A stretch of 64,000 nucleotides of DNA. Source: Ignavibacteriota bacterium (GTDB lineage: Bacteria > Bacteroidota > Ignavibacteria > SZUA-365). Positions 2,511 to 20,310 of this stretch are shown here, piece after piece. Under the pieces are notes generated by a model. It was not told where the DNA came from and did not search any database. It saw nothing but the letters and a program-made list of their open reading frames with translations. Every line of letters begins with the position of its first letter. The stretch's first letter is position 1. Position numbers and translations under genes: made by a program. The stretch is taken from contig JACRFB010000052.1 in assembly GCA_016218045.1 (NCBI GenBank), positions 1-64,000 on the forward strand, in the 5' to 3' direction.

Positions 2511-3586
2511 ACACAGCCGCAGCCACCGTCGCGGTGAAAACCGCGGCTCTGCAGGCCGGATTCACACAGGTCGGGATAGCACGCGCGGAGGCACTTGTCG
2601 AGGAGCGCGCGCGACTCGAGGAGTGGTTGCGACGCGGACACCATGCGGGCATGGCGTGGCTTGCGCGCGACGTGACTCGGCGCTGTGATCCGCGCGAGGT
2701 TCTCCCCGGCGCGCGTTCTGTCATCGTGGTGAGTTGCACCTATCTGCACGGCGGGGAAGAGGCGGAGGCGCCGACGCGGCGGGGCAAAATTGCACGATAC
2801 GCGCGCGGCCGCGATTACCATCGTGTGCTGCGCCGCATGCTGCGGAAGGTCGAGGCGGCGATACAGCACATTGATCCCGAAGCCCGATCCCGCAGTTTTG
2901 TGGACAGCGGTCCGGTATTGGAAAAGGCCTGGGCTGTGCGCGCGGGACTAGGATGGATCGGCAAACACACCAATCTCATTTCGCGCACGCAGGGATCCTG
3001 GTTTTTCCTCGCCGCCGTGCTTACCACCGCCGCGTTCGAGTACGATGCGCCGGCGGTCGATCATTGCGGTACCTGCACCGCGTGTATCGACGCCTGTCCC
3101 ACACACGCCATCCCCGAGCCGTACGTGCTCGATGCGCGCGCGTGCATTCCGTATCTCACGATAGAACTGCGCGACCCGGTGATGCCGGAACTCGAACACA
3201 CGGATTTCCGCAACTGGGTGTTCGGCTGCGACATCTGCCAGGAAGTGTGTCCCTGGAATCGTTTCGCATCCGAGACACAGCACGACGACTTGCGTCCGCG
3301 CGCTGCCACAACGCTGCCCTCGCTCGACTGGCTCGCCGATATTGACGAGCAGGAGTTCGTCCGCGCGTTTGCAGGCACACCCGTGATGCGCGCGAAGGCC
3401 GCGGGGATGAGGCGCAATGCGCGGTGGCTGCTGCGGGAATCGGACAGCGGGACAGCGGGAGCGGAACAACGAAATAGTGTCACGCTGAGCGTAGTCGAAG
3501 CGCGACGGGACAGCAGGAGAGCGGGACAGCGGGAGAGCGGGACAGCGGGAGAGCGGGACAGCGGGACAGCCGGAGAGCGAACTTGA
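2504..3586 (+). CDS. queG: Epoxyqueuosine reductase QueG with repeat-encoded tail
   Basis: A cobalamin- and Fe-S-dependent reductase that performs the last step of queuosine synthesis in tRNA. The QueG architecture is clear: an N-terminal DUF1730-like domain, then two ferredoxin-type motifs, CGTCTACIDACP (from about residue 188) and CDICQEVCPWN (from about residue 245). The gene starts at GTG 2504 inside the end of the Rieske gene. Normal QueG similarity ends near RRNARWLLRE (about residue 312). The remaining 45 or so residues are an in-frame translation of a dispersed GC-rich repeat (Ser-Gly-Thr-Ala-Gly-Glu-Arg units), so the native stop codon has probably been lost to a repeat insertion or expansion. 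Confidence 0.92.
   Translation: MVDTAAATVAVKTAALQAGFTQVGIARAEALVEERARLEEWLRRGHHAGMAWLARDVTRRCDPREVLPGARSVIVVSCTYLHGGEEAEAPTRRGKIARYARGRDYHRVLRRMLRKVEAAIQHIDPEARSRSFVDSGPVLEKAWAVRAGLGWIGKHTNLISRTQGSWFFLAAVLTTAAFEYDAPAVDHCGTCTACIDACPTHAIPEPYVLDARACIPYLTIELRDPVMPELEHTDFRNWVFGCDICQEVCPWNRFASETQHDDLRPRAATTLPSLDWLADIDEQEFVRAFAGTPVMRAKAAGMRRNARWLLRESDSGTAGAEQRNSVTLSVVEARRDSRRAGQRESGTAGERDSGTAGERT
3450..3586 (+). repeat. Dispersed GGGACAGCGGGAGAGC-type repeat in the 3' end of queG
   Basis: The tract alternates GGGACAGC and GGGAGAGC units and contains one longer core (about 3467-3515) that includes AACGAAATAGTGTCACGC and a GTCGAAGCGCGACGGG segment. The same core occurs three times, in reverse complement, at 20020-20310, and short GGGAGAGCGGGACAGC runs occur near 13500. 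It is translated as the QueG tail. Confidence 0.85.
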
Positions 3587-11499: not shown

Positions 11500-11576
11500 T
11501 TGTCCCACACAACGAGAGGAGCACAAACACACTTTTCTTGTACACCACAAAATCGTGTTGGAACAAAAAATACAAG

Positions 11577-11905
11577 AAAGTCTCCGTTCCCTCCGTTCCT
11601 CCTGTGCACACCCGTCATATCACCTTCACCACATTTTGATACGCCACGCAAGCATGTTGGAACAAAAAAGAAAGTCTCCGTTCCCTCCGTTCCTCCTGTG
11701 AACACCCGTCCTATCACCCTCACCACATTTCGATACACCACGAAATCGTGTTGGTTCAAAAATTAAAAAAAGTCTCCGTTTCCTCCGTTCCTCCTGTGCA
11801 CACCCGTCAAATCACCTTCACCACATTTTGATACTCCACGCAAGCATGTTGGAACAAAAAAGAAAGTCTCCGTTCCCTCCGTTCCTCCTGTGAACACCGC
11901 CTTCC
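11577..11905. repeat. 94-bp tandem repeats (3.5 copies)
   Basis: Units beginning AAAGTCTCCG start at 11577, 11671, 11769 and 11863, giving periods of 94, 98 and 94 bp; the fourth copy is cut short after CTCCTGTGAACACC. Each unit contains TCCGTTCCCTCCGTTCCTCC, then a CACCTTCACCACATTTTGAT-like part and an A-run after TGTTGGAAC. A half copy (CACCACAAAATCGTGTTGG) precedes the first unit. They fill most of the 444-bp gap between the homoaconitase and PrpD genes; I see no promoter or gene here. Confidence 0.95.
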
Positions 11906-11943: not shown

Positions 11944-13374
11944 ATGGAAAAATCTATCGCCCGCACCATGGCCGAATATGCCGTCGGCCTGAAATATGAA
12001 GATCTGCCCGCAGACGTCGTGCACGAAGTGAAGCGCTACCTCTACGATTCCGTGGGCTGCGCGTACGGCGCGACAGGAACGCGCGATGTCACGATGATGA
12101 AGGACGTGCTTCTCGACATGGGCGGCACGCCCGAGGCCACCGTGCTCGGTTTCGGTCACAAGCTTCCCGCGGCGAATACCGCGCTGCTCAACGCGCTGAT
12201 GATTCGCTCGCTCGACTTTAACGACATCTACTGGAAGGAGGATCCATCGCATCCGTCCGACATCATTCCCGCGGCGCTTGCGGCGGGTGAGCGTGTGGGC
12301 GCGTCGATGAAGGACGTGATCACCGCCATCGTGCTCGCGTACGAATTCGAGCAGCGGCTCTGCGAGTTCGCCGTGCCGGGGATTCGTGAACGCAAATGGC
12401 ATCACGCCACACTCACGCAGTTCGTGTCGCCCCTCGTCGCCGGCAAGGTGCTCGGACTGACGGTGGACCAGATGGTGAACGCCATCGGCATCAGCGGATC
12501 ACACAGCCACACCATCGGCTGTCCCACCGCGGGCAAACTCACCATGATGAAAAACACGGTCGATCCGATGGCCACGCAGGCAGGCGTCTTCGCGGCGCTG
12601 CTCGCGCAGAAGGGATACACGGGCACCGAAGCGGTGTTTGAAGGCAAGGAAGGATTCATGGACTGCTTCTTCGGCTGGGATGTGAAGGCACAGCAGGTGC
12701 AGCCGGTGCCGATGCAGGGTCGAGAAACTCTCGGCGAGTGGGGATGGAATCTCGACAAGCTCATCGGCGGACTCGGTTCCTCGTACAAGATTCTCGAATG
12801 TTCGATGAAGGCCTTCCCGACCGAGGCGCTGACACACACACACATTTCGTGTCTGCTGAAAACCGTGACAGGACACAACATCAGCTACGACCAGATCGAG
12901 AGTGTCACCGTCACCACCATCGCGCGCGCATGCGACATCCTCTTTGATCCGCACAAGTACCGTCCCGAAAGCCGGGAGACCGCGGACCATTCACTACCGT
13001 ACTGCCTCGCGGTGGCCATGGTGGATCACAAGGTGACAACACAGTCGTTCAGCGACGAGAAACTGAAGGATCCCAGAATCTGGGAAGTGATCGATCGTAT
13101 CAAGGGCGAGGCCTCGATGGAATTCGAGCAGATGTTCCCCGCCAAACAGCCCTCGCGTGTCGTGATCCGCACCAAGGATGGACGCGAGTTCTCGGAGTAT
13201 CTCGAATATCCGAAAGGTGATCCCCGCGAACCGATGACCATGGAGGATCTCGACAACAAGTTCGAAGCTCTCGCCGGCGCACTCTCCGCCGAAAAACGTG
13301 CCGCGGTCAAGGATACAATCTTTGGCTGCGACGTGATGAACGTGCGCGAGTTTATGCAGGCGCTTGTTGTCTGA
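11944..13374 (+). CDS. MmgE/PrpD family protein
   Basis: A 476-residue member of the MmgE/PrpD family, which includes 2-methylcitrate dehydratase and cis-aconitate decarboxylase. Family landmarks are the N-terminal helical bundle with a YDSVGCAYGA segment (about residues 35-44), the LDFNDIYWKEDPSHPSDII region (about 95-115) and a C-terminal mixed domain. The substrate cannot be assigned: no prpB, prpC or acnD is adjacent, though the upstream aconitase-family gene makes a tricarboxylate plausible. The ATG at 11944 has no strong ribosome site. A rho-independent terminator follows. Confidence 0.85.
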   Translation: MEKSIARTMAEYAVGLKYEDLPADVVHEVKRYLYDSVGCAYGATGTRDVTMMKDVLLDMGGTPEATVLGFGHKLPAANTALLNALMIRSLDFNDIYWKEDPSHPSDIIPAALAAGERVGASMKDVITAIVLAYEFEQRLCEFAVPGIRERKWHHATLTQFVSPLVAGKVLGLTVDQMVNAIGISGSHSHTIGCPTAGKLTMMKNTVDPMATQAGVFAALLAQKGYTGTEAVFEGKEGFMDCFFGWDVKAQQVQPVPMQGRETLGEWGWNLDKLIGGLGSSYKILECSMKAFPTEALTHTHISCLLKTVTGHNISYDQIESVTVTTIARACDILFDPHKYRPESRETADHSLPYCLAVAMVDHKVTTQSFSDEKLKDPRIWEVIDRIKGEASMEFEQMFPAKQPSRVVIRTKDGREFSEYLEYPKGDPREPMTMEDLDNKFEALAGALSAEKRAAVKDTIFGCDVMNVREFMQALVV

Positions 13375-13398: not shown

Positions 13399-13428
13399 AC
13401 CCTCTCCGTTTCGGGGAGGGTTTTTTTT
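13399..13428 (+). terminator. Rho-independent terminator of the PrpD gene
   Basis: ACCCTCTCCG and CGGGGAGGG form a stem of nine or ten pairs (one G-U) with a 3-nt loop, followed by eight T residues, 25 bp after the stop codon. This is the clearest intrinsic terminator in the left half of the window. Confidence 0.9.
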
Positions 13429-13550
13429 GGAGGAGCTAGGATTGAGGAGGTAGGAATTAGGATTTGGGAGGAGGGAGTGGGGAGTAGGGAGGAGGGAGTA
13501 GGGAGAGCGGGAGAGCGGGACAGCGGGAGTGCGGGAGCTGTGACATGCCG
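13429..13550. repeat. Purine-rich degenerate repeat tract
   Basis: The + strand here is almost pure A/G: GGAGGAGCTAGG, then TAGGAATTAGGA units, then GGGAGTAGGGAGGAGGGAG and finally GGGAGAGCGGGACAGCGGG. The last part belongs to the same family as the queG tail repeat. It has many short G-runs and could form G-quadruplex or triplex structures. No gene is seen. Confidence 0.85.
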
Positions 13551-13598
13551 AGTTTGTCGAGGCACGACGGATCAGTTTCCAGAAAATCGCGCACACGC

Positions 13599-13947
13599 TC
13601 TCGCAATGCGGTTTTCACGTCTCGCAATGCGGTTTTCACGGTTCGCAATGTGGTTTTCACGCGCTGCAATGCGGTTTTCACGTCTCGCAATGCGGTTTTC
13701 ACGCGTTGCAATGCGGTTTTCACGTCTCGCAATGCGGTTTTCACGTCTCGCAATGCGGTTTTTACGGCTCGCAATGTGGTTTTCACGGATCGCAATGCGG
13801 TTTTCACGTCTCGCAATGTGGTTTTCACGGATCGCAATGCGATGTTCACGACTTGCAATGTGGTGTTCACGGCACGCAATGCGATGTGAACGCGTTGCAA
13901 TGCGATGTGAACGTGTCGCAATGCGATGTGAACGTGTCGCAATGCGG
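13599..13947. repeat. 21-bp tandem array, about 16.6 units, exact register
   Basis: Sixteen full units and a partial one follow each other every 21 bp without a single insertion or deletion. The unit is a variable tetranucleotide followed by GCAATGCGGTTTTCACG. The variable part reads TCTC, TCTC, GTTC, CGCT, TCTC, CGTT, TCTC, TCTC, GCTC, GATC, TCTC, GATC, ACTT, GCAC, CGTT, TGTC, TGTC. From unit 12 on, the constant part drifts to GCGATGTTCACG and then GCGATGTGAACG. Because 21 is a multiple of three, frames stay open on both strands; on the minus strand they read as VKTALRD heptads. Coding is not proven. Confidence 0.97.
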
Positions 13948-14031
13948 AAATCATCCGAAATTCATTGCATGATCTCCGTCCGGCTTCTATTTTCAGACTC
14001 CGTTTTCTTTCACCCCACAAAGGAAAATACC

Positions 14032-14469
14032 ATGACAACAGTGAACGTGTATCTGAATTTCGCCGGGAACTGCGAAGAGGCGTTCGAATTCTATAAATCC
14101 GTGTTCGGCGGAGAATTCCCGTATGTCGGACGTTTCAAGGACATGCCGCCGCAAGAGGGTATGCCGCCGCTGCCGGCGGAGATGGAAAACCAGATCATGC
14201 ATATCTCGCTGCCGATCGGTGGCGACACCATGCTGATGGGGAGCGATACCGGCGGCGAATGGGCGCCGAGCTATGTGCAGGGCAACAACTTCGCCATCTC
14301 GATCAGCACCGACACGAAGGAAGAAGCCGACCGGCTCTTCGCCGGACTCTCCGCCGGCGGCACCGTCACCATGCCGCTCAGCACCGCCTTCTGGGGCTCC
14401 TACTTCGGCATGTTCACCGACAAGTTCGGTGTGAACTGGATGGTGAGCCAGGGCGGCGAGGGAATGTAA
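14032..14469 (+). CDS. VOC-family PhnB-like protein
   Basis: A 145-residue glyoxalase/bleomycin-resistance-fold protein of the PhnB/DUF1338-like single-domain group, with the typical start (VNVYLNFAGNCEEAFEFYKS), a MGSDTGGEW middle segment and the closing FGMFTDKFGVNWMVS strand. These proteins dimerise to form a ligand site; the substrate is unknown. The start is ATG 14032 after AAAGGAAAA. The frame runs open upstream through the 21-bp array to 13477, but that part is repeat-encoded and not family-like. Confidence 0.9.
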   Translation: MTTVNVYLNFAGNCEEAFEFYKSVFGGEFPYVGRFKDMPPQEGMPPLPAEMENQIMHISLPIGGDTMLMGSDTGGEWAPSYVQGNNFAISISTDTKEEADRLFAGLSAGGTVTMPLSTAFWGSYFGMFTDKFGVNWMVSQGGEGM

Positions 14470-14540: not shown

Positions 14541-14619
14541 ATTGTAACACGGTGGAAACTGTGAAAGCGGTTTCCACCTTTTTTTACTCAACCTGTCGAA
14601 TGCAAATAATATGTCTCCG

Positions 14620-14755
14620 CCTGTTGCGTTCGGGCGAGGAGCCGTCGGGCAGCCGTGTCCTCGATGTGGACGTGGCGGGTCTGCGCGCGGGGCTGTACTT
14701 TGTGCGGGTGACCGGCAGGCAGGCGACACAGACAGTGAAACTGCTCATACGTTGA
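14620..14755 (+). pseudogene. Orphan fragment of a T9SS C-terminal sorting domain
   Basis: The last 45 or so codons before the TGA at 14753 encode a recognisable half sorting domain (SGSRVLDVDVAGLRAGLYFV, then a short TVKLLIR end). About 70 nt at 14637-14707 are almost identical to 17911-17981 in the intact Asp-box gene downstream. No start, signal peptide or body precedes it; upstream is microsatellite. It is most likely what remains of a deleted T9SS cargo gene, or the donor/recipient of a duplication. Confidence 0.8.
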
Positions 14756-15674: not shown

Positions 15675-18029
15675 ATGATCCAAGTTCAGGACACTCCAGT
15701 GCTCAAAAACCGCATCCTCTTCATCCTCGCCTGTATCATTCCGTGGCTCGGGAACAACTATCCGTGTCAAGCTCAAACATTACGCCAGATATATCCAGAC
15801 TGGCCGTGTGAAACTCTTACATCTCTCTGTGTCTCGGGCTCCGATACATTATTCGCCACCGGTCTTAACGCCACAATCCTGATCTCCACAAATGGGGGTG
15901 CAAACTGGTCTCTCCAACAACGAATATATGGAGCTTACGATTACTGGAGGTCGGGGTGGTATGACGGTTCACTGTGGGTTCTCCCATCAGGTCTATCTTA
16001 CAGAGATGAATTGCTGCGTGACTCATCCAATCTCTTCCTTTTACGATTCGGATTAGACGGGACTAGTGAACGCATTCAGATTCCATTATCGCTCGGAGTG
16101 GATGAAAACTCTGTTCTTGGTCTGGATCTCTCGGCCAATCAGGCTGCCGCATTTGTCGCATACTGGTCACCAACACAAGGCCAGTCTCGAGCGGTTCGTA
16201 CGACTACGGGAGGACGTACGTGGGACGTTGTACCGCTTCCCAGCGATGGAAAACCGTCGATCATGAATGCACTGTTCTTTCACGATGCTAGAAGAGGGCA
16301 CGCAATCACCGCGGAAGAAGCTGACGGGGATTATCACCTCTACCTTACAAATGACGCAGGGTTGTCGTGGCAGCGCGCAAACGAGATTCAGTTTCGCACT
16401 CGCTGGCACAGCGGGTGGCTAGGATATCCGGTAAGTTGGATTGATGATAGCAGTATTGTCGCCATTTCGCGCAATACAGAGGTGTATTTAAGCAGAGACT
16501 ATGGTCGGACATGGCAATTACGCAATATCTCACTTCCTGCAATTGGGATTTCCATTGCCATGCGAGGTTCGGGGGTAGGGATTATGGTCGGGGCCGGTCT
16601 GGATGTGTATCGCACCACAGATTTTGGCACGACGTGGGTGGCGCTTACACGCCAAAGGGCAGCTTCCGAGCAATCCATAGTTCGTCTTTTGAAGGATTCG
16701 ACGTTCGTGATAATCACTGAAACTGGAATGAGATTCGGCAGCTCTGACGCAGGGCAGACGTGGAACGGTCAATACCACGAATATCGTAACGGTCTACTCC
16801 CCAGATATTTCCACAATAACACCCAAGCATATTCGCTTGCGATGCCACCCGGTTCTGATCTTACAACAGTCATTGCTGGTACCACAGATACAGCGAAAAC
16901 TTGGCGCACGCTGAACCTACCAGAGTATGACGCAGTGCTTGGAGTTATACCAATCTCGCCAACAGAGGTCCTGGCATTTCGGACATCCACAACTGCAACA
17001 GGACCGCTTGTATACCGGACATCCGATGCAGGAAACACCTGGACAAGCGTTCTCGCGTCCGGGCAACCTGATGCCGCATTGCACCTCAATAATATGCGTG
17101 ACAGGTTGCATCGCGGTCGCGACACCGTATTTCTCGCCGGGAGAGAAGGCATGTATTGCAGCAGCGATCAGGGAAAATCTTGGACCTACTATGCAAGAGA
17201 AGGATTTCCGCGTACGAGCGATTCGATTTGGTATACCATGGATCTGACATATCGGGAGTACTCCTGGTCGCTATTCGGTGGTTCGATATTTCGTTCGGCA
17301 GATGATGGACGCACGTGGGAGCGTGTCCTGACAATGCCTCCGAACAATACACGATTATCAGTTCTTGGACCAAAAACCGTTGCGGTGTATTCGACATTTC
17401 GTGAACATGGCGCTGCTCGCGATGTTACAGGAACGCTGTATCACACTGAGGATGGAGGTATACAGTGGTCAAGTAGTCCACTTCGCGGCGACAATCCTCG
17501 TGTGAGAACCGAAGGTGGACTAAATATGGAGGGACGCGGGATTGGTGTATTATATAAGAACAATACGATCCCAGGTGGCACAAAATATATTATAAACATG
17601 ACGACAGATCTTTGGAGATCATATACGCCTGTGTGCAGTATTAATGAACGAAACAATGTTACGATCGTGACCATCGACAAGCATGATCCTCTCGTATTTC
17701 GCGGTCATGTAATATACCGCCTAACATCGTACTCCTCAACCACGATTAACTACAACCATACGCCACAACAGGCGCTGCTCGGTCCCGCCTACCCGCAGCC
17801 GGCGCGTACACGCGTGCAGGTGCCGTACACGGTGGAGCATGCGGGGACGCTGCGTTTTGATCTGTACGACGCGATGGGCCGCCACATCCGCACACTGCGA
17901 GCCGGCGAGGAGTCGCCGGGCAGCCGTGTCCTCGATGTGGACGTGGCGGGTCTGCGCGCGGGGCTGTACTTTGTGCGGGTGACGACGCCCTCCGGCGTTG
18001 ATGTGCGACGTATCAGCGTGCTGCCATGA
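15675..18029 (+). CDS. Asp-box (BNR-like) propeller protein with T9SS sorting domain
   Basis: A 784-residue secreted protein. A signal peptide (hydrophobic stretch about residues 14-25, likely cut near CQAQ) leads into a beta-propeller with about eleven Asp-box-like motifs (STNGGANW at 71-78, then TNDAGLSW, SRDYGRTW, TTDFGTTW, SSDAGQTW, TSDAGNTW, SSDQGKSW, SADDGRTW and others). The last 80 or so residues are a type A T9SS sorting domain (PAYPQPARTRVQVP start, GLRAGLYFVRV near the end). The body is AT-rich (35-43 % GC in two hand-counted 60-nt lines before 17640), while the sorting domain begins at about 75 % GC at 17761. Catalytic sialidase residues are not evident, so adhesion or another surface role is more likely. 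Confidence 0.85.
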   Translation: MIQVQDTPVLKNRILFILACIIPWLGNNYPCQAQTLRQIYPDWPCETLTSLCVSGSDTLFATGLNATILISTNGGANWSLQQRIYGAYDYWRSGWYDGSLWVLPSGLSYRDELLRDSSNLFLLRFGLDGTSERIQIPLSLGVDENSVLGLDLSANQAAAFVAYWSPTQGQSRAVRTTTGGRTWDVVPLPSDGKPSIMNALFFHDARRGHAITAEEADGDYHLYLTNDAGLSWQRANEIQFRTRWHSGWLGYPVSWIDDSSIVAISRNTEVYLSRDYGRTWQLRNISLPAIGISIAMRGSGVGIMVGAGLDVYRTTDFGTTWVALTRQRAASEQSIVRLLKDSTFVIITETGMRFGSSDAGQTWNGQYHEYRNGLLPRYFHNNTQAYSLAMPPGSDLTTVIAGTTDTAKTWRTLNLPEYDAVLGVIPISPTEVLAFRTSTTATGPLVYRTSDAGNTWTSVLASGQPDAALHLNNMRDRLHRGRDTVFLAGREGMYCSSDQGKSWTYYAREGFPRTSDSIWYTMDLTYREYSWSLFGGSIFRSADDGRTWERVLTMPPNNTRLSVLGPKTVAVYSTFREHGAARDVTGTLYHTEDGGIQWSSSPLRGDNPRVRTEGGLNMEGRGIGVLYKNNTIPGGTKYIINMTTDLWRSYTPVCSINERNNVTIVTIDKHDPLVFRGHVIYRLTSYSSTTINYNHTPQQALLGPAYPQPARTRVQVPYTVEHAGTLRFDLYDAMGRHIRTLRAGEESPGSRVLDVDVAGLRAGLYFVRVTTPSGVDVRRISVLP

Positions 18030-20019: not shown

Positions 20020-20310
20020 GACCTTGTCTCTCTCCCGCTGTCCCGCTGTCCCGCTGTCCCGTCGCGCTTCGACTCCGCTCAGCGAGACACTATTTCGTTG
20101 TTCCGCTCCCGCTCTCCCGCTGTCCCGCTCTCGCGCTGTCCCGTCGCGCTTCGACTCCGCTCAGCGAGACACTATTTCGTTGTTCCGCTCCCGCTCTCGC
20201 GCTGTCCCGCTCTCGCGCTGTCCCGTCGCGCTTCGACTCCGCTCAGCGAGACACTATTTCGTTGTTCCGCTCCCGCTGTCCCGCTCTCCCGCTGTCCCGC
20301 TCTCCACACC
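20020..20310. repeat. Three 82-bp units of the dispersed repeat
   Basis: GTCGCGCTTCGACTCCGCTC starts at 20061, 20143 and 20225, so the period is exactly 82 bp. Between cores lie CCCGCTCTCCCGCTGTCC runs. The core matches, in reverse complement, the repeat in the queG tail. It fills the 357-bp gap between the VWA gene and crtI; the frame happens to stay open into crtI. No promoter was recognised. Confidence 0.95.

Follow-up and report, generated by a model that had tools for sequence, protein, structure and literature searches.

A probable species-specific 21-nucleotide satellite at intergenic sites of an Ignavibacteria-like genome, with change concentrated in two spacers separated by about one helical turn

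Introduction

Bacterial tandem repeats of 20 to 21 nt form a class described by Subirana and Messeguer as constant in size, species specific, and non-coding (PMC8161180). In this class, every repeat carries a short characteristic motif, a genome can hold several families of the same length, and the unit length equals two helical turns; no function is known (PMC8161180). The class was called enigmatic, with nucleoid proteins or small RNAs offered as guesses at its function, and in B. simplex such repeats dominate the repeats of the genome (PMC8161180). Prokaryote satellites have been surveyed (PMC6749651), and heptameric bacterial repeats are also known, including the Xanthomonas/Nostoc GGGAATC type (PMC4692102) and TAACTGA repeats (PMC4679880).

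Here, a 21-bp tandem array within a 64,000-nucleotide stretch of DNA (the window) was analyzed, together with three arrays of the same family on contigs C40, C49, and C63 of the same genome. Like the published 20- to 21-nt class, the four arrays have a constant unit length (21 bp, with units of 20 or 21 bp in a second type at C49), appear non-coding by codon tests, are species specific, and carry a characteristic motif, GCAATG; the genome also holds several 21-bp unit types (GCAATG, TTCCGCGGGCAT, and GTTCCGCGCGGTGGTCACATG). They differ from that class in their Ignavibacteria-like host, in mosaic arrays and 105-bp higher-order repeats, and in the concentration of variation in two spacers one helical turn apart; unlike in B. 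simplex, 21-nt arrays are a minority of the tandem repeats (7/38). With the heptameric repeats they share the character of intergenic short tandem repeats, and this genome also has many 7- and 8-bp arrays; however, no 7-bp periodicity is found within the 21-bp unit.

Plasmid replication iterons are direct repeats of about 20 bp, with a conserved core and a short variable spacer, set on one helix face. The arrays resemble iterons in their ∼20-bp direct repeats, conserved core, short variable spacers, and phasing but lie on chromosome-like contigs beside metabolic genes and have no plasmid match. No replication gene was seen in the array neighborhoods that were read (three arrays). A literature search found no earlier report of intergenic tandem repeats in Ignavibacteria and, with the terms used, nothing on 21-bp minisatellites, Ignavibacteria repeats, or iterons.

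Results

The window array and its setting

The array lies on the plus strand between genes for an MmgE/PrpD family protein and a VOC/glyoxalase-like protein, and the features of this region are as follows.

11944..13374, plus strand: MmgE/PrpD family protein gene, 476 aa, upstream flank (Pfam PF03972, PF19305)
13402..13429, plus strand: likely intrinsic terminator of the MmgE/PrpD gene, a stem-loop then T8
13466..13537, plus strand: 7/8-bp simple repeats adjoining the array, GGGAGTA and GGGAGAGC (TRF)
13594..13947, plus strand: 21-bp tandem array, ∼16.8 units, consensus GCAATGYGGTTTTCACG plus NNNN (TRF, unit listing)
13603..13833, plus strand: first sub-block, 11 units with a GTTTTCACG core (one GTTTTTACG) (unit listing)
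13834..13938, plus strand: second sub-block, 5 units with a derived core, TGTTCACG then TGTGAACG, a directional drift
13939..13947, plus strand: truncated terminal unit, GCAATGCGG (unit listing)
14032..14469, plus strand: VOC/glyoxalase-like (PhnB-type) protein gene, downstream flank (Pfam PF00903, PF06983)

TRF called the array at 13594 to 13947 (16.8 copies of 21 bp) with a score of 403, against a ceiling of 70 across 20 Markov shuffles of the window. The unit listing gave an exact 21-bp register over 16 consecutive units (13603 to 13938), with a partial unit on either side and with indels confined to the ragged ends. An earlier note on this DNA had described just such an exact-register array, and the TRF call, the shuffles, and the unit listing bear it out. 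Also as that note had it, GCAATG is invariant (16/16 units) and the tetranucleotide is hypervariable, taking 9 forms among the 16 units. Its claim of a fixed CACG was slightly overstated: ACG is present in all 16 units and CACG in only 12, the exceptions being unit 8 (TACG) and units 14 to 16 (GAACG). The one-directional drift that it reported is found in the core, which reads TTTTC in units 1 to 11 (except TTTTT in unit 8), already TGTTC in unit 12 (starting at 13834) and again in unit 13, and then TGTGA in units 14 to 16, so that the change from TTTTC to TGTTC to TGTGA spans the last five units.

The MmgE/PrpD protein shares at most 79% identity with proteins encoded by metagenome-assembled genomes of Ignavibacteria and Bacteroidota. 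Its likely terminator was the one intrinsic terminator found in the region, where 1.1 would be expected by chance, and it is placed directly after the stop codon at 13374; the array would thus fall outside the MmgE/PrpD transcript. The 7/8-bp repeats that follow are typical of intergenic DNA in this genome. The array ends ∼85 bp before the ATG of the VOC gene (14032), and no promoter-like site was found in the window array region.

Two further features lie nearby. Imperfect 94/192-bp duplications (AAAGTCTCCGTTCCCTCCGTTCCTCCTGTGAACACC...) occupy 11541 to 11898, between an aconitase-like gene and the MmgE/PrpD gene, and a related 93-bp repeat occurs on contig C44 (L144, 15260 to 15439). At 14600 to 14755, a short ORF has at its end a T9SS-type C-terminal motif (SGSRVLDVDVAGLRAGLYFVRVTG...), a repeat of the C terminus of a 784-aa protein at 15675 to 18029; the short ORF is probably a remnant copy.

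Tandem repeats of the genome

Tandem repeats are plentiful between the genes of this genome, with 184 TRF loci in 1.24 Mb of stretches, although this density is slightly inflated because four of the stretches (the window and three loci) were chosen as array bearing. Thirty-eight of the 184 loci have at least 4 copies of a unit of at least 10 bp. The dominant periods in the genome are 7, 8, 14, 16, 21, and 24 bp; repeats of 20 to 21 nt account for 7 of the 38 arrays with at least 4 copies, and two of these seven are heptamer derived. Repeats of CGGGACAGCGGGAGAG (8/16 bp) and 74- to 148-bp composites that include GCGACTCAGCGAGACACTATTTCGTTGTTCCG-like parts are scattered across the genome, often at contig ends (window 3506 to 3579 and 20030 to 20305; L143, L144, L147, L148, and L149). 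On contig C70, a 794-aa protein with long internal repeats (ALRDSLDANTRQYTRLSQLSDSLNTLPRQQGM; L151, 662 to 3046) is likely a genuinely coding tandem array, in contrast to the 21-bp arrays.

Four arrays of one family

A search for further arrays with the GCAATGCGG/CACG frame, as the earlier note had proposed, returned three more, all in the same genome. Those at C40 (∼16 units), C49 (∼12 units), and C63 share the frame GCAATGNNGTTTTCACG-NNNN. Exact 21-bp phasing extends over 16 consecutive units in the window, 15 at C40, and 11 at C49; GCAATG is present in 16/16, 15/15, and 7/11 of these units, respectively, and TTTTCACG in most units. No solitary copy of the core was found in the genome at up to one core mismatch.

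The array at C63 (L038, 429 to 740) is a 105-bp (5 × 21) higher-order repeat built from two 21-bp unit types, in which GCAATGACGTTTTCACG units alternate with GCAATGACGTTTCAATCC units. This higher-order organization resembles that of eukaryotic alpha satellites. At C49, the array passes into a second type of 21-bp unit, GTTCCGCGGGCATNNCAATCC, two units of which are 20 bp. This second type (TTCCGCGGGCATNNCAATCC; L030, 3241 to 3471) begins where a small gene with no Pfam match ends, at its stop codon, and runs into the GCAATG array upstream of argF. Besides the GCAATG type and the TTCCGCGGGCAT type at C49, the genome has a 21-bp array of another sequence, GTTCCGCGCGGTGGTCACATG, at the end of C70.

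Each array has been homogenized locally, since the nearest relatives of 52 of 55 units all lie within the unit's own array. Adjacent units tend to resemble each other more than distant ones do (lag-1 p values of 0.06, 0.06, and 0.01). Around three arrays, the neighboring genes encode metabolic, exported, or unknown proteins, among them MmgE/PrpD, VOC, and ornithine carbamoyltransferase. Wherever the downstream gene is known (window, C40, and C49), the units have the orientation of that gene.

Occurrence in other genomes and databases

No array was present in 11 genomes of the same family, and a similarity search of 15 relatives found none; a search of the class (390 other genomes) returned a single degenerate match of two units. 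Relatives retain the flanking genes but have no arrays, and the equivalent sites beside prpD and argF lack one. Specificity to the species thus holds at the family and class levels, with array-free family relatives and a single degenerate pair class-wide. Neither GTDB contigs (∼85,000 species) nor viral contigs contained an array in an exact-pattern scan, and BLAST gave no match in 72,556 plasmids and none in phages; with no plasmid, phage, or viral-contig match, mobile iterons and a viral source were rejected. CRISPR was ruled out by the 4-bp spacers and the 21-bp period. In a family-level relative (G004), a locus with a 76-bp period and 96 copies (L212, 2521 to 9852) is possibly a CRISPR array.

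Coding, RNA, and heptamer readings

The earlier note had also read VKTALRD-type heptads on the minus strand and had offered a variable coiled-coil protein gene as one option. The heptads are indeed readable, in an open frame of 193 aa in which V/I and L are kept at the coiled-coil core positions across the units and which has weak generic coiled-coil Pfam matches. However, no stretch passes alone for the best of these (DASH_Duo1), and four of the six frames of the window array are stop-free, as a unit length divisible by 3 leaves several frames open. Of the changes in the VKTALRD frame, 4/24 in the window, 2/12 at C40, and 6/13 at C49 are synonymous, where fractions of 0.27, 0.26, and 0.23 are expected without selection, and the pooled count of 12/49 is in line with the expectation without constraint (0.23 to 0.27). 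The variation has no 3-bp periodicity (p of about 0.7), the Leu codon in GCAATG units is always TTG, and at codon 7 bases 1 and 2 vary while base 3 is fixed, the opposite of purifying selection. The ORF ends are unrelated between arrays and run through simple repeats, and the 20-bp units at C49 break the heptad frame. Judged from these codon patterns, coding for amino-acid repeats is not supported, and we regard the coiled-coil gene as the least probable account of the array. A plus-strand ORF (13477 to 14469) passes through the array into the VOC gene; an in-frame N-terminal extension of the VOC protein was rejected, as the frame joining array and gene differs at C40 and CAATGA units give stops.

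An RNA-level element, transcribed upstream of the VOC gene and folding or acting as a small RNA, would account for the better-than-shuffled folding of the window plus strand (z = −2.3) 85 bp upstream of the ATG (minus strand, z = −1.4), but shuffled sequences fold at least as well as the arrays at C40 (z = +0.26) and C49 (z = +1.71). With a signal in the window array only, conserved RNA structure was rejected, and an RNA element is improbable. Descent from a decayed heptamer microsatellite (3 × 7 bp) would make the array one of the many 7- and 8-bp repeats in a genome dominated by 7-, 8-, 14-, 16-, 21-, and 24-bp repeats. The consensus self-similarity at a shift of 7 is 0.38 for the window and 0.14 for C40 and C49, against 0.81 to 0.90 for the true heptamer-derived 21-bp arrays of this genome, and none of the relatives showed a 7-bp array at the window site. 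A heptamer origin was rejected on the self-similarity and is slightly more improbable than an RNA element. Bent DNA (a phased TTTT tract) is also unlikely, as, on inspection of the sequence, the T tract is missing from the second C49 type and from units 12 to 16 of the window array.

Position of the changes within the unit

Minimum-spanning-tree changes in the window, C40, and C49 arrays fall mainly in two spacers separated by about one helical turn, with 16 changes in positions 7 to 9 and 21 in positions 18 to 21. The two spacers, 7 of the 21 sites, thus take 37 of the 49 changes, and most core sites have few. When positions were permuted within arrays, an equally rich pair of 3- and 4-site blocks arose once in 2000. 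The variation profile has its strongest power at 10.5 bp (A+B+C, p = 0.005), a harmonic suggested beforehand only by the "two helical turns" of the earlier note, and none at 3 bp; entropy and tree changes gave the same 10.5-bp outcome. For the in-phase 10.5-bp sum, position permutation gave a p value of 0.0003 with three arrays and a lower one with four, while circular shift, a stricter null that keeps clumping, gave 0.054 to 0.079 and 0.011 to 0.029, respectively; these values come from few arrays, which may share ancestral variants. The second C49 unit type had no 10.5-bp signal (p = 0.82). This distribution of changes is the best evidence, of moderate strength, for a putative helical-face constraint of the kind expected in a protein-bound array, and the way the variable sites are spaced is a hint that the array is read as DNA, not as protein.

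Discussion

We consider the array to be, with a probability of roughly three in four, a non-coding, species-specific 21-nt bacterial satellite that has spread by copying to four or more intergenic sites, where it has grown and been homogenized locally. The family fits the published, unexplained 20- to 21-nt class (PMC8161180), in a lineage for which no earlier report was found. Its unit consists of two blocks with their spacers: GCAATG, a 2- to 3-nt spacer, GTTTTCACG, and a 4-nt spacer. A unit or short array would have been copied to the four or more intergenic sites, after which each array would have grown and been homogenized locally by replication slippage or unequal exchange, growth sometimes proceeding in multi-unit blocks, as the 105-bp higher-order repeat at C63 suggests. 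Slippage or unequal exchange is the turnover that we infer; that the 10.5-bp block spacing reflects a protein contacting one helix face is a weaker suggestion.

The array may instead be functional, a tentative possibility in which GCAATG and GTTTTCACG, two contacts per unit, are bound on one helix face by a sequence-specific protein that polymerizes along the array, for example to organize the nucleoid or to control the downstream gene; the spacers would face away and be free to vary. Consistent with this are conserved blocks centered ∼10 bp apart within the 21-bp unit, the 10.5-bp harmonic without a 3-bp one, the exact phasing in the window, C40, and C49, and the match of unit direction to the downstream gene in those three arrays. 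Against it, the second C49 type includes 20-bp units and lacks the harmonic, the core drifts toward the end of the window array (its last five units), functional sites of one or two units are absent elsewhere, and relatives keep the neighboring genes yet have no arrays; with only four arrays, perhaps of shared ancestry, the statistics are soft. The more specific proposal, that the unit is a two-contact site on which a putative DNA-binding protein polymerizes along one helix face, with one contact per turn and the spacers facing away, is somewhat more doubtful. Purely neutral turnover, for its part, would not predict that the same two spacers change in separately homogenized arrays or that the 10.5-bp periodicity is in phase across arrays; neutral satellite turnover may nonetheless account for the array. 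The protein-binding and satellite DNA options of the earlier note both survive.

What is new in the satellite described here is variation pooled in two spacers, with a 10.5-bp periodicity in phase across arrays and no 3-bp periodicity. With four arrays in one genome, the sites that tolerate change could be mapped, and their spacing is 10.5 bp, not 3 bp. The comparison of 10.5- and 3-bp periods is simple and applicable to the published 21-nt arrays, where it could separate helix-phased constraint from neutral turnover. Outward-facing spacers, if true, would explain why 20- to 21-nt repeats recur in unrelated bacteria without shared sequence.
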